From positions 1 through 21,077 of the IMG/VR virus record IMGVR_UViG_3300031857_001658: DNA of 21,077 nt; one strand, written 5' to 3'. This document shows positions 7,584 to 13,072 of this stretch, in pieces. Under the pieces are notes generated by a model. The model searched no databases, was not told where the DNA came from, and was given only the letters and a program-made list of their open reading frames with translations. The position numbers were made by a program, and so were the translations under genes. This stretch comes from a virus. Each line of letters begins with the position of its first letter. Position 1 is the stretch's first letter.

Positions 7584-8189
7584 TTAGTGTTTCTTAACCT
7601 TTCTTTTTATCTGAGCTCTAGCTCTCCTGATTCTAGTTGCGATCGATCTCTTTTTTATGCCATACTTGTGGGCTATGTCCTTATACTTCATACCGTTTAT
7701 CTCACGGTCAATCATGATGTCACGATATATTTCAGGAAGAGCACGGATTTCATCTATAACAGAGTCGTAGATCTCCTCTAGTGTGTTCTCCTCTTTGAAA
7801 CAGTAATCGGGTGAATCCTCTAGAGTGTAAGCCCCGTCAGTAAGGGTGTTTGAATTTTTCTTATTGGAGTGATAATCTATCTCCTGGTCGCTCTGTGAAA
7901 CGAATCTGCTTCTAGACTTTATAAGGAGTAGGCTTTCATTTCGGGCTATATTATAGCACCAGGTGGAAAAATTAGCTCTCTCGCTATTGTACTGATCTAT
8001 CTTGGTCCATATTTTGGACATAGTATTAATGAAAGCATCTTCTGCTTGTTCTCTATCTTTTAGAATTACAAAGCAATGGTTTAGTATACCAGGCCTAAGT
8101 CTGTCAAATAAATCAACGAAAGATTTTTCATTCTTCTCGATTAAAAAAATCTCCGCTAGGGATTGGATGTTGTTCTCTTTTTTAGCCAT
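7584..8189 (-). CDS. ECF-like sigma-70 family factor
   Basis: This 201-aa protein has the two-domain layout of extracytoplasmic-function sigma factors. Region 2 spans about 12-95: a helix with FDRLRPGILNHCF, then DREQAEDAFINTMSKIW and the RNA-polymerase-binding and -10-reading part NFSTWCYNIARNESLLLIKS. A variable linker follows (96-138). Region 4 spans about 140-197: ALPEIYRDIMIDREINGMKY, KDIAHKYGIKKRSIATRIRR and a basic end. It lacks regions 1 and 3. It should guide host RNA polymerase to a subset of promoters, either phage or host, which the sequence does not reveal. No anti-sigma gene is evident, though the adjacent membrane protein (7135-7548) could be considered. It lies 23 bases after the dCMP deaminase stop. 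Confidence 0.85.
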   Translation of the reverse strand: MAKKENNIQSLAEIFLIEKNEKSFVDLFDRLRPGILNHCFVILKDREQAEDAFINTMSKIWTKIDQYNSERANFSTWCYNIARNESLLLIKSRSRFVSQSDQEIDYHSNKKNSNTLTDGAYTLEDSPDYCFKEENTLEEIYDSVIDEIRALPEIYRDIMIDREINGMKYKDIAHKYGIKKRSIATRIRRARAQIKRKVKKH

Positions 8190-8837: not shown

Positions 8838-10529
8838 TTAAATTCTTCTAGAATCAGGCCTAAAAGGATCGGGATTGTATATATTAAGCGGACCACTTAA
8901 AGATCTAGCCATACTCCCAAGAAGGGCTTTTATTTCTTTCATATCATTTGATAAAAAAGGAGATCCCTCAGATACACTGACTTCACCCCCAGATTTACTA
9001 GTGGTAGAACTAGATTGTGTATTTCCACCACCGCCACTACCGCTATCTGATTTAGCCTCCATAGGAGCAGCAGATGGGGCTGGGGGTTGAGGTGCAGGCT
9101 GCGTCTGGGAAGCTTCAGCGGGTGCAGGTTTGCTAGTTTTAGAAAGAGCTGCGTTAGACTTTTCAACCTTAGGCCCAGGTTTTTTACCTGCGGGAACTGA
9201 AGCTGGTTTAGCTAAAAGACCGGATGCAGTTTTAGCCGATCCTGCTGTGGTCTTTTCAACTTTCCCGTTTTCACTAAATAATTTCTTATCTAGATTATCC
9301 GTCTGTTTGATACCCTTAGATTCCATTAACTTTGAAATCTCCGCCTCATATTGGCCCATGTAATCTTCAAGGCCAAAAGCTTTTAACATCTCTACACCGC
9401 TCTTTATTGCGTCGGTTCCAGATTTATTTCCTCCCTCTTTTTTAGCAGCGGGTCCTTCACCCTTGTTTACCTTTGATAATTCAGGGGATTCGGTATTTAA
9501 TACAGAAGATTCAGATTTTTTTTTGGCCTCAGAAAACCTTCGATTAGCTTCTTCGTCCATGAATTTCTCGATCTCGTAATTAAGGACATCACTATTGTTA
9601 GCTAAACCAGGGGTTTCTTTAATTAATTGAGCGACGTGGTTATCAACTTCACTCTGTGAAGGGTAAAAATCCTTAAAAAGCATGCTTTTTATTCCGCCAC
9701 TTTCACTGATAATAGATTCTGCTGTCTTGACATTAACTCTACCTGTTTCACCTTTTACACCTGCAAATGGTCCTGCTGTCGGTGCACCAGATGCAGCAGA
9801 TTTCCCTTGCTCTGATATCTTTTTACTTAAAGAGTCTAGGACAGTCAATTTATCAGAATCACTTTTAGTATCTAAACCCAAAGCGGAATTCTCTGCAATA
9901 TCACTCTGTATACTTTTTTTAATCTCCTCTATGGGATATCTACCATTATCACCAACCAAAAAATTATACCCACCTTGATTTTCTACTTTTACGAAACCAT
10001 CTTTTATGAAGTCCTTCATCCTAGGAATTGCATTCAATCCATCTATAAGGTCCGATACATTTAGGGGTACAACTTTGGAACCACCAGGGATCTCCATTAT
10101 TTCTGGTCCGTTTTCTCCTACCACATATGTTCCAGGTTCAGTTGCCTTTCCGCCATCTTTTAAAGCACCTTTTACAGGGACTTTCTGTTGGTTCTGTTTG
10201 GCACTTTTAGATGCCATTAGCTTTGAAATCTCCGCCTCATATTGGCCCATAAAATCTTCAAGGCCGAATTTTTTTAACATCTCTGCTCCCTTCTTTACCG
10301 CATCGTTTTCGGGAAGATTAGGATTTTTTTTAGAACCTGTGGATTCAGCAATTTTATCCGGAAGACCCTGAAGATCCTTAGAGACAGATTTTGATATCTC
10401 CTTAAGATCTTTAGAAACAGATCCTGATATAGCTCCCAGATTTTTGTTGGTTTGCTTTAGCTCTTTAACAACCTCGGCTAAGTTCCTGGAAACATCCAAT
10501 AGCTGTTTGTACTCATTGCTATCCGCCAT
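8838..10529 (-). CDS. Candidate tape-measure or baseplate-hub protein with duplicated motif
   Basis: This 563-aa protein is near the length of T4 gp29 (590 aa), the tape measure and hub protein. The N-terminal 60 residues look like a coiled coil with repeats of SVSKDL. A 31-residue block with GLEDFMGQYEAEISKLM occurs at about 75-105 and again at 372-402. Between them is GTYVVGENGPEIMEIPGGSK (about 133-152), a motif typical of phage tail tape-measure proteins. The region after 410 is rich in Ala/Pro/Lys/Ser/Gly and ends in a short structured tail with a Phe-Arg-Pro-Asp-Ser. No membrane segments are present, unlike many tape measures. Its position directly after the frameshift-type gp26-like gene supports the tape-measure idea, because frameshifted chaperones usually precede the tape measure. 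Function is inferred. Confidence 0.6.
   Translation of the reverse strand: MADSNEYKQLLDVSRNLAEVVKELKQTNKNLGAISGSVSKDLKEISKSVSKDLQGLPDKIAESTGSKKNPNLPENDAVKKGAEMLKKFGLEDFMGQYEAEISKLMASKSAKQNQQKVPVKGALKDGGKATEPGTYVVGENGPEIMEIPGGSKVVPLNVSDLIDGLNAIPRMKDFIKDGFVKVENQGGYNFLVGDNGRYPIEEIKKSIQSDIAENSALGLDTKSDSDKLTVLDSLSKKISEQGKSAASGAPTAGPFAGVKGETGRVNVKTAESIISESGGIKSMLFKDFYPSQSEVDNHVAQLIKETPGLANNSDVLNYEIEKFMDEEANRRFSEAKKKSESSVLNTESPELSKVNKGEGPAAKKEGGNKSGTDAIKSGVEMLKAFGLEDYMGQYEAEISKLMESKGIKQTDNLDKKLFSENGKVEKTTAGSAKTASGLLAKPASVPAGKKPGPKVEKSNAALSKTSKPAPAEASQTQPAPQPPAPSAAPMEAKSDSGSGGGGNTQSSSTTSKSGGEVSVSEGSPFLSNDMKEIKALLGSMARSLSGPLNIYNPDPFRPDSRRI
9323..9414 (-). repeat. Internal repeat copy 2 in tape-measure candidate
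   Basis: This is the second copy of a 92-base segment also at 10214-10305. The first 37 bases on the plus strand differ at one position only, and the rest is diverged but in register. It encodes the block with Gly-Leu-Glu-Asp-Tyr-Met-Gly-Gln-Tyr. Confidence 0.8.
10214..10305 (-). repeat. Internal repeat copy 1 in tape-measure candidate
   Basis: This is the first copy of the repeat, 891 bases from the other. It encodes the block with Gly-Leu-Glu-Asp-Phe-Met-Gly-Gln-Tyr. Near-identical bases in part of the unit indicate either a recent duplication or ongoing gene conversion. Confidence 0.8.
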
Positions 10530-10562: not shown

Positions 10563-10736
10563 TTATCTACGGAGGGTGAAAACATTCTTTTTGCCGTCTG
10601 CCTCCAGGTTACTATTGTTCTCTTCCTCTATCACGATATTCAATTTATCTAGCCATATCTGATATTCGTAATAGGGTATAGACTCCAGCCAATCTGGATC
10701 TATTTTATGCTCTTGCCAGAGCCTAAATTTAATATC
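10563..10736 (-). CDS. Probable +1 frameshift extension of the gp26-like protein (57 aa)
   Basis: Downstream of the gp26-like stop (TGA 10737-10735) the +1 frame is open to a TAA at 10565-10563. It encodes 57 residues with a sensible composition, including KIDPDWLESIPYYEYQIWLD (11-30) and an acidic stretch IEEENN. There is no ATG, GTG or TTG start in this frame before its upstream stop near 10860. The zero frame ends CTT CTT TGA TAT; a ribosome slipping from CTT to TTT would continue with GAT ATT AAA, giving a 419-aa fusion. CTT TGA is the exact shift site of bacterial prfB. The aromatic plus Glu pattern of the extension resembles the T part of tail-assembly chaperones and the gp26/gp51 group of T4-like phages, an impression from memory. 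The alternative is a sequencing indel in the shared region 10735-10860. Confidence 0.65.
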   Translation of the reverse strand, partial: DIKFRLWQEHKIDPDWLESIPYYEYQIWLDKLNIVIEEENNSNLEADGKKNVFTLRR

Positions 10737-10740
10737 AAAG
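10735..10740 (-). promoter_or_regulatory. prfB-type +1 recoding site CTT TGA
   Basis: The last sense codon (CTT 10740-10738) and stop (TGA 10737-10735) of the gp26-like gene form the hexamer used for +1 frameshifting in release factor 2 genes. The upstream bases (AGA AAA CTT) contain no strong Shine-Dalgarno-like stimulator of the kind seen in E. coli prfB. That could mean low efficiency, a different stimulator, or a chance match. Confidence 0.5.
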
Positions 10741-11823
10741 AAGTTTTCTAAGGATATCTGAAATAATGAAAAGTGATCTAATCCCGCCGGGAAATGATAT
10801 TTCAGCGGAGACCTCCCTACCTCCGCATTTAGGACATTTAACAGAAGCTTTTGGCTTAGTCCCTATCTTTATTCTTTCAGATAGTATGAAGTATAAAGAG
10901 AATTCCTCCTTTGTCCAGTAATCCATCTTTCTCATCTCGTTCATTATGAATTGATTATCCATCACCCTCCATTCTTCAAATAGGAATGGAGATATTTTAA
11001 GGAAAGAGTCATCAACATCTATATTGTTCTTTAAACAATGAGCAGTGAACTCAGATATTCTTTGAGTTACTCCTATACTAGGAACATACATTCTAATGGG
11101 ATTTGATGATCCACCTATTTGAAAGGTAAAGCATCTATTTGTAGGATCATAATATTTAGAAACCTCAGAATCCAAGGTATATGAAGCTAAAACACCGGTT
11201 CTTAATTCAAATCCATTTGTCAGCGGGCATTCTTTTTTATTCTCACACTCGGTTTCGGGGAAGAGTACAACTGAATTTTCACCCTTTACAAAGGTTAAAT
11301 CCCTTATTGCTACAATTATGAAAAATCTATCCTCTGACTTAAGATCCTTGTAAGAAACCACTCCTTCGTTTGGGAATTCCATAGAAAGGCACCTGTCTAG
11401 AATATACCCTAATTTTTCTTCTATGTCCAATCTATCTGTCTCGTCTATAGTTGAGAAGTGGCGGATTTCTTTAACATCAGCAGGTCTAATAGCCATTCTT
11501 ACACCTTCTGGATAAAACATTCCTTTAGAAGGTAGAATATCAACAGGTAGGTTTTTCCAGCCTATGTCGCCGGGTGATATTTTTCTTTCCCCTGCTTGTC
11601 CAGTGTTGCCAAATGGAGTAGCGGGTGCTCTGAAAAAATTCTGAGCTTTACCCAATGATGTTACCTCCTGCTGTTCTTCAGCAGCGGGCGGTGCAGGATC
11701 TTGCTGGGTCATTTGATTCACCTCAGCATATTCTTTGATTTCTTTTTCTGGAAGTGGATCATATTTCAATCCGCCCTCTTCTTCTCTTCTTCTTAGAATT
11801 TCTTCGGGTGATAAGTCTAGCAT
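10735..11823 (-). CDS. 26: gp26-like baseplate hub / tail-assembly protein, zero-frame product
   Basis: This 362-aa protein resembles the T4 baseplate (gp26) family. After a roughly 90-residue charged, Pro/Gln-rich N-terminus comes LPSKGMFYPEG (97-107), VRMAIRPADVKEIRHFSTID (108-127) and the DIEEKLGYILDRCL helix (133-146), which I associate with this family. Cys193 and Cys199 (ECENKKEC) and Cys330/Cys333 (KCPKCGG) may form a zinc site. T4 gp26 is about 208 aa, so this is longer, mainly at the N-terminus. The zero frame stops 29 residues after the CPKC motif; a +1 shift would add 57 residues (10563-10736). The gene begins a new unit after the terminator at 11862-11895. The family call is by motif, not by search. 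Confidence 0.7.
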   Translation of the reverse strand: MLDLSPEEILRRREEEGGLKYDPLPEKEIKEYAEVNQMTQQDPAPPAAEEQQEVTSLGKAQNFFRAPATPFGNTGQAGERKISPGDIGWKNLPVDILPSKGMFYPEGVRMAIRPADVKEIRHFSTIDETDRLDIEEKLGYILDRCLSMEFPNEGVVSYKDLKSEDRFFIIVAIRDLTFVKGENSVVLFPETECENKKECPLTNGFELRTGVLASYTLDSEVSKYYDPTNRCFTFQIGGSSNPIRMYVPSIGVTQRISEFTAHCLKNNIDVDDSFLKISPFLFEEWRVMDNQFIMNEMRKMDYWTKEEFSLYFILSERIKIGTKPKASVKCPKCGGREVSAEISFPGGIRSLFIISDILRKLL

Positions 11824-11925: not shown

Positions 11926-12504
11926 TTACAAGAATGTATCTTCCCAGTAATCACATTTCCATGTTACTGATAGACTGTAGATGCTATTTCCCTGATCGTA
12001 ATCGAGATCCATTGCGTTTATTGGCTCACTTATGAAGCAAGAAGGAATTCTGATTCTTCTAAATACGTCACCTTGCTTATTAAAAACAGAGATAAGAACT
12101 GATCCGACATAATCTCTCTTTAATCCCATTGCGCCAGTTAATGGGTTATAGATTAAATCAGACCACTGTCTAAGTATTTTATAGATAGTCATCGAATTGG
12201 CACTATTAAGGTTAACCTCAAAATCTATGGTCATATCCATATCTGATGTTGAAGGCTCACCTCCAGCATATCTTCTAGTTGCAAACTTATAAAACTGTTC
12301 AACCGGAGCTGAAGGTTGAATGTCTACAGCTAAACCGCTAATGCTTTTAACTTGCTGGGTAAGAATAAACTCGCCCTGGAACTGAGTTGCAGCTTCAGTT
12401 ATCGCAGCAGGTGGTGTTATAAGAACCTCAAATTGGTTCAAATAAACCGGCTCGTAATAGTTTCTAGCCGCTGTAGACTGATTGAAATGTGGTAATCCTG
12501 CCAT
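11926..12504 (-). CDS. Tail tube protein gp19-like, copy 2
   Basis: This 192-aa protein is a clear paralogue of the one encoded just upstream. They share LPHxxxS at the N-terminus, EPVYLNQFEVLITPP (18-32), the KFATRRYAGG element, a long shared centre with Leu-Arg-Gln-Trp and LIYNPLTGAMGLKRDY, SVFNKQGDVFRR, and the C-terminal DYWEDTFL. T4 gp19 (163 aa) forms the inner tube of the contractile tail. This copy has a slightly longer segment after ITPP (AAITEAATQFQGEF). With two copies, one probably builds the main tube and the other a cap, an initiator or a minor ring; which is which cannot be read from the sequence. It starts 13 bases after the stop of copy 1. Confidence 0.85.
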   Translation of the reverse strand: MAGLPHFNQSTAARNYYEPVYLNQFEVLITPPAAITEAATQFQGEFILTQQVKSISGLAVDIQPSAPVEQFYKFATRRYAGGEPSTSDMDMTIDFEVNLNSANSMTIYKILRQWSDLIYNPLTGAMGLKRDYVGSVLISVFNKQGDVFRRIRIPSCFISEPINAMDLDYDQGNSIYSLSVTWKCDYWEDTFL

Positions 12505-12517
12505 TTATGTTATTTTT

Positions 12518-13072
12518 TTATAGGAATGTATCCTCCCAGTAGTCAACCGCCCATTCCATGTTATCGATCTTGTAGATCTCCTCACTGGTATAATTTAATC
12601 CCATAGCGGAAACTGGTTTTATTGGGAAGCAATCTCTGCAAACTACTCTTCTATATACATCTCCCTGTTTGTTAAACATAGAGATTACTATAGTTCCAGT
12701 GTAATCTGTTTTTAAACCCATAGCTCCAGTTAAAGGATTGTAAATAAGATCAGTCCACTGTCTTAGAGTTTTAAAAACATACATTGAATTAGCATCATTA
12801 AGGTTAATCGTGAAACTCAACGAAACGTTCATGTAAGTTGTATCCGGCTTTGCTCCTGCATAGTTTCTTTTAGCAAACTTATACTTCTGGTTAACAGTAG
12901 AAGGATTTTTATCCAGCTGTAACCCATTAACTTTAGTAACGTGCTCTAGCAATATAGGTCCTCCAGCAACCGGTCCTGGAGGGGTAATTGTAACTTCAAA
13001 TTGGTTCAGATAAACAGGTTCAAACTTGTTTATCGAAGACATCGAACTTGAATAGTGTGGTAAATTTGCCAT
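12518..13072 (-). CDS. 19: Tail tube protein gp19-like, copy 1
   Basis: This 184-aa protein is of the T4 tail-tube (gp19) family. It contains EPVYLNQFEVTITPPGP (18-34), KFAKRNYAGAKPDTTYMNVS, Leu-Arg-Gln-Trp-Thr-Asp, LIYNPLTGAMGLKTDYTG and a final DYWEDTFL shared with copy 2. Position directly after the sheath gene, as in T4 (18 then 19), supports it as the main tube protein. It has three extra Cys/Pro positions late in the chain (CRDCFPIKP) where copy 2 has PSCFISEP. It starts at ATG 13072, 39 bases after the sheath stop, in an A/T-rich leader containing GATAAATA. Confidence 0.88.
   Translation of the reverse strand: MANLPHYSSSMSSINKFEPVYLNQFEVTITPPGPVAGGPILLEHVTKVNGLQLDKNPSTVNQKYKFAKRNYAGAKPDTTYMNVSLSFTINLNDANSMYVFKTLRQWTDLIYNPLTGAMGLKTDYTGTIVISMFNKQGDVYRRVVCRDCFPIKPVSAMGLNYTSEEIYKIDNMEWAVDYWEDTFL

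Follow-up and report, generated by a model that had tools for sequence, protein, structure and literature searches.

A single gene in a phage contig, as apparently in a wide group of large phages that infect Bacteroidota-type bacteria, probably yields a gp26/gp51-type pair of tail assembly chaperones by programmed frameshifting at CUU_UUC, with −2 as the most likely direction of the slip. The contig is a 21-kb IMG/VR record, analysed over its whole length of 21,077 nucleotides (here called the window), with the T4-like gene order terminase, sheath, two tube paralogues and frameshift gene. The layout of the reading frames, the homology of both parts, frame-specific constraint and conservation of the slip site are all observed directly. 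The zero frame ends in CTT CTT TGA (stop at 10737-10735), and past this stop the +1 frame runs for 57 further codons to a TAA at 10565-10563. This arrangement had been described in an earlier sequence-only reading of the DNA and is confirmed by the ORF coordinates (Table 1). The same reading had proposed that frameshifting carries a gp26-type gene on into a second frame, so that it makes both a short and a long chaperone, and this part of its interpretation is supported.

Table 1 Features of the frameshift locus, in window coordinates
Feature	Coordinates	Strand	Basis
gp26-type tail assembly chaperone, short form, 362 aa	10735..11823	-	ORF; PHROG 36717/150; fold match
Proposed slip site CTT TTC (NUU_UUC)	10768..10773	-	Conservation; constraint changes frame there
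gp51-type C-terminal extension, 68 aa + TAA, +1 (= −2) frame	10563..10769	-	PHROG 634; hhalign
CTT TGA, stop of unshifted product, judged non-slip	10735..10740	-	CTT TGA in 56/147 unique relatives
Conserved RNA hairpin, SD-like GGAGG in loop	10805..10826	-	Pairs kept in two clades

Two frames, two parts of one protein family

By sequence comparison the 362-aa product appears to belong with the hub/chaperone proteins of T4 gp26 type, although its N-terminal homology is weak in the window itself. It matches PHROG 36717 (E 2e-23) and PHROG 150, baseplate hub (E 0.0018). Against PF12322 (T4_baseplate) the N-terminal domain of the window reaches E 0.01, below the Pfam cut-off; the PAU homologue lies above it (E 3e-8). 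Direct profile comparison of the N-terminal domain with cyanophage gp26 by hhalign gave no match. The short form as modelled by AlphaFold2 (mean pLDDT 81, pTM 0.72) retrieved predicted T4-like baseplate hub proteins from BFVD with a probability of 1.00. A fold search of the PDB with the window and cyanophage models returned no significant match; the HK97-type tail chaperone fold (2OB9) was matched weakly, at E 3.4 and probability 0.12 by the window model and at E 1-1.6 and probability about 0.5 by the cyanophage model.

For the second frame the match is PHROG 634 (gp51), annotated as ‘baseplate hub assembly catalyst’, with E 6.6e-6; the 68-aa tail alone matches it at E 4.4e-5. In hhalign the window tail aligns with cyanophage gp51 tails from the second residue after TTC (97%, E 9e-11), and for this reason SLFQISLENFF, which lies 5′ of the TGA, is regarded as true tail sequence. 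Cyanophage tails match residues 210-245 of T4 gp51, which are its end. PHROG 150 spans all of T4 gp51 and is itself spanned by cyanophage gp26 (5-232) and tail (230-281) together. Judged from these alignments, T4 gp26 and gp51 are paralogues that differ by the gp51-type tail, and the window carries this C-terminal tail.

From its upstream stop to 31 codons beyond the TGA the +1 frame contains no ATG, GTG or TTG. The earlier statement that this frame lacks a start codon is thus correct where it matters; further on, the frame has a TTG near 10643 and a GTG near 10634. As in a G/GT-type pair, the second frame is open, has no usable start and is under selection, and the first ORF has a conserved slip site close to its 3′ end. 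A separate tail gene that starts independently, perhaps at a non-canonical or coupled start, is highly improbable. Upstream of the slip site some relatives do have GTG, ATG or TTG in the +1 frame, and in GenBank the extension is listed as a short gene of its own (PAU gp94, MA9V1_007, pT24 gp131). Yet in 43 of 147 unique sites none of the three codons occurs after the upstream +1 stop and before the slip, 123 of 147 have no ATG, the +1 frame is in many cases open only about 10 codons upstream, and T4 gp51 is one fused chain. An independent gp51 start was rejected for most relatives.

The open +1 frame is no chance feature and a sequencing indel is excluded, because the frame matches PHROG 634 and the layout recurs in 51 IMG/VR loci and many further contigs. 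The probability of a sequencing or assembly indel, or of a pseudogene, is negligible: nothing points to either beyond the frame break itself, and well over 100 independent contigs and isolates are alike, with purifying selection on both parts.

A probable frame change at a conserved NTT TTC

In the window family, nucleotide variability switches phase exactly at the TTC of CTT TTC (10770-10768). On the 5′ side, changes favour zero-frame third positions; on the 3′ side, only zero-frame first positions, which are third positions of the +1 frame, vary for several codons. On a tree of 33 tips, the 12 codons that precede TTC show 22/21/39 changes at zero-frame positions 1/2/3 and the 10 codons that follow show 20/0/5 (Fisher p = 3e-4); TTC itself has 0. 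A similar pattern is seen in the L055 clade (2/2/3 before versus 13/1/0 after, p = 0.012). For the L061 clade, the first 10 codons give no significant switch (p = 0.77); the next nine codons are clear (51/22/5). Read in the +1 frame, 70% of the codon differences after TTC are synonymous in the window family and 84% in the L055 family, against 16% and 0% when the same differences are read in the zero frame. Selection on the +1 frame already acts 5′ of the TGA, back to about 10769. As constraint passes from the zero to the +1 frame at TTC, the shift is placed 10 codons before the TGA. The last ~10 residues of the short form would be read by non-shifting ribosomes only. In the loci L160-L181 codons −12 to −5 from the slip carry no substitution at all, synonymous sites included (21 tips), which suggests RNA or overlapping constraint.

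A scan of IMG/VR gave 56 relatives. Among the 51 with readable ends, 47 finish in NTT TGA (44 in CTT TGA), with the +1 frame open for 57-68 codons where complete; in the other four (L010, L011, L036, L051) the stop there is lost and they end in TAA. Queries with L055, L058 and L061 led to three further clades, and a 23-base DNA pattern found at least 120 stretches, of which 64 were unique and readable. A gp51-like +1 frame over the 3′ end of a gp26-like gene is also present in more distant relatives, namely Lak, PAU, MA9V-1, pT24, PTm1 and MaF61, and in metagenomic phages of 462-735 kb. The PAU query returned PAU itself only, the MA9V query returned nothing, and a search of genome contigs for relatives found none. 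The named relatives (Prevotella, Tenacibaculum, Chryseobacterium, Flavobacterium) point to Bacteroidota-type bacteria as the host group; the recorded host of PAU is Sphingomonas.

NTT TTC is the constant element in several clades. It occupies 141 of 147 unique sites, about 64 of which came from the DNA pattern with TTTTC fixed and the rest through protein similarity; the hexamers are CTTTTC (78), ATTTTC (62), GTTTTC (1), ATTTTT (1), ATTGTC (1), TTATTC (2) and ATATTC (2), so that TTTTC in 141 and TTTTT in one offer a codon able to re-pair two bases upstream. T is kept at the wobble position of NTT in 143 of 147, and TTC is invariant in the window family. Some exceptions count against the proposed slip. 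L156 and L159 (TTA TTC) and L065/pT24 (ATT GTC) have no NTTTTC and carry AAA A shortly upstream, which could support a +1 slip on AAA. The Lak phages L059 and L060, also exceptions, read ATA TTC at the usual site, have the gp51-like +1 frame and end the zero frame in TTT TAA; here the slip may have moved to UUU_U.

The sequence-only reading had placed the shift at the stop itself, as a prfB-type +1 event at CUU_UGA tuned by RF2 availability and giving 419 aa. The string CUU UGA is indeed shared with the +1 site of prfB (RF2), and CTT TGA occurs in the window and in 44 of the 51 relatives. This placement is nevertheless barely tenable, since +1-frame constraint starts 10 codons upstream and SLFQISLENFF, encoded in that frame, shows homology to cyanophage tails. 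Across the 147 unique sites the zero-frame stop is TGA in 93 and TAA in 54, the codon before it varies freely, and CTT TGA is found in 56, others having GTT, TTT, ATT or GTA before TGA and GAA or GAT before TAA. Relatives with GTT, GTA or TTT TGA, with GAA or GAT TAA, or with no stop there still keep NTT TTC. Unlike prfB, the window has no Shine-Dalgarno sequence 3 nt before CTT, where it reads AGAAAACTT CTT TGA; its CUU UGA is not conserved, and its frame changes elsewhere. Control by RF2 finds no support, as TAA ends many relatives and the prfB Shine-Dalgarno sequence is absent.

Likely direction of the proposed slip and an upstream hairpin

We propose that the majority of ribosomes would read the gp26-type ORF through to the TGA and produce the 362-aa form, and that a minority would slip at CUU_UUC, move to the +1-equivalent frame and extend the chain by the 68-aa gp51 tail. 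This slip would most likely be −2, with tRNA-Phe on UUC re-pairing with UUU two bases upstream. The product would then read ...RSLF-SLFQISLENFFDIK... over 420 aa, with SLFSLFQISLENFFDIK as the predicted tryptic junction peptide. Of the lengths given earlier, 362 aa stands and 419 aa is valid for a +1 slip only. Slippage itself, its direction and efficiency, and the chaperone function are what we infer.

A +1 slip at the same site is the less probable possibility. Here the P-site tRNA-Leu would slide from CUU to UUU within CUU_UUC, giving ...RSL-SLFQ... (419 aa) and the predicted tryptic peptide SLSLFQISLENFFDIK. The same CUU to UUU re-pairing is used by prfB, CTT is the commonest codon at the position (78/147), and +1 cases outnumber −2 cases in the literature (PMC5009743). 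Against it, 62 of the 147 sites have ATT and one has GTT, where the first base makes for poor pairing with UUU. Shifts of +1 usually require a slow A site, and UUC in the A site is not a stop and not known as slow. We prefer −2 by a moderate margin because re-pairing of UUC with UUU works for any N, and NUU with UUU works well only for CUU. The preference follows the logic of codon pairing; both slips reach the same frame and look the same to sequence comparison.

Past the slip site, alifold gave neither a pseudoknot nor a stem for the window family, and Rfam gave no match. Upstream there is a hairpin, GCGGAGG-[TAGGGAGG]-TCTCCGC, 35-56 nt from the slip codon, with GGAGG (10816-10812) in a loop of 8-9 nt. 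Its pairs are kept in 133 of 140 cases in the window family and in 164 of 174 in the L061 clade (loci L189-L252), where the stem has a different sequence and register. Sliding the pairing partners lowers the kept pairs to at most 46 and 107, respectively, and compensatory changes include T-A/C-G and T-A/A-T exchanges. In a comparison with synonymous-codon shuffles, 77 sequences give a mean z of −1.66, and 43% of them have p < 0.05; the window's own hairpin alone is not significant (p = 0.2). The distance to the slip site is too great for the GGAGG to be a classical Shine-Dalgarno stimulator. To our knowledge, no described frameshift has as its 5′ stimulator a hairpin that presents GGAGG in its loop. 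We suggest tentatively, as a possibility that the evidence does not yet favour, that a large lineage of Bacteroidota phages, jumbo/huge phages included, uses a conserved −2 shift at NUU_UUC helped by the GGAGG-loop hairpin.

Related systems, annotation and neighbouring genes

Many long-tailed phages have a pair of tail chaperones, and for a long time T4 was counted as the exception to frameshifting. The assignment of gp26/gp51 as T4-like tail assembly chaperones is due to Vladimirov, Gautam & Davidson (2022, PMID 34826709), as relayed in PMC10885494 and PMC12846349. Taken with lambda G/GT, the assignment as relayed there suggests a tail chaperone pair in the window; by analogy with lambda, coating of the tape measure would fall to the short form and recruitment of the tail tube protein to the long form. 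Lambda G/GT follows the same short/long logic but has a different slip site and direction (−1), and its tape measure directly follows, whereas a tape-measure neighbour is unproven in the window. T4 gp26/gp51 shares with the window the homologous gp51 tail and an N part common to short and long forms, and probably also the N-terminal hub domain, whose match is weak in the window. As far as those sources go, T4 differs in having two paralogous genes, and its relatives with a poly-T site shift −1, whereas the window tail is in the +1/−2 frame.

In cyanophage-like loci U UUU UUC lies in phase at the gp26 end, with gp51 in the −1 frame (80/80). The gp26-gp51 genes of cyanophages and pelagiphages (L069-L071, L073-L153) shift at the same Phe codon near the gp26 3′ end, into a homologous tail. 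They differ in making a −1 tandem slip on a canonical heptamer and in having the zero-frame stop one codon later. One homologous family would be made in three ways, by duplication (T4), by −1 shifting (cyanophages) and by a +1/−2-frame shift (the window group), and the evolution of shift direction can therefore be tested at a single homologous codon. Previous work has established T4-like chaperones, the duplication in T4 and the −1 shift at poly-T sites. Neither a conserved +1/−2-frame shift in this Bacteroidota phage group nor a covarying upstream hairpin with a GGAGG loop was found in the literature searched, which covered few subscription journals. Slips of −2 are rare, which counts against the proposed direction; because conserved −2 sites are rare too, a lineage with many sequenced natural variants would be a useful model.

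Near its 3′ end the chaperone gene gp41 of phage Mu reads CGG GGG CGA, which is presumably the slip position and allows the same two-base re-pairing. A −2 frameshift is known for this gene (PMC5009743). Mu is likened to the window as a chaperone gene and by its slip site, where re-pairing is exactly two bases upstream (GGG on GGGGG, UUC to UUU in the window), not by protein sequence; codon and host differ. A split of related genes by lineage is also seen in Trichomonas vaginalis virus, an RNA virus of a eukaryote, where virus 1 shifts −2 and viruses 2-4 shift −1 (PMC5009743).

The present results also correct annotation, as the extension in PAU, pT24, MA9V-1 and MaF61 has probably been recorded as a separate hypothetical gene. 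Short annotated genes in L064 (3890-4066), L065 (3845-4066), L066 (3839-4009), L067 (3899-4036) and L069 (1855-1989) are probably pieces of the frameshift extension and not separate genes.

The ORF downstream (8838-10529, minus), earlier offered as the tape measure, is unproven in that role. It encodes a polar protein of 563 aa (436-584 aa in relatives) with no family match and no hydrophobic segment, and other genes replace it downstream in other clades. The protein contains a VVGENGPEIMEIPGGSKVVP motif, and a segment resembling GxEMLKxFGLEDxMGQYEAEISKLM occurs in it twice. On the other side, the two ORFs at 11926-12504 and 12518-13072 (minus) lie next to each other and are tail-tube paralogues, with PHROG 32623 as the best match for both. 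At 7584-8189 (minus) a 201-aa ORF gives the impression, from its sequence, of an ECF-type sigma factor, and a similar ORF lies downstream in relatives.
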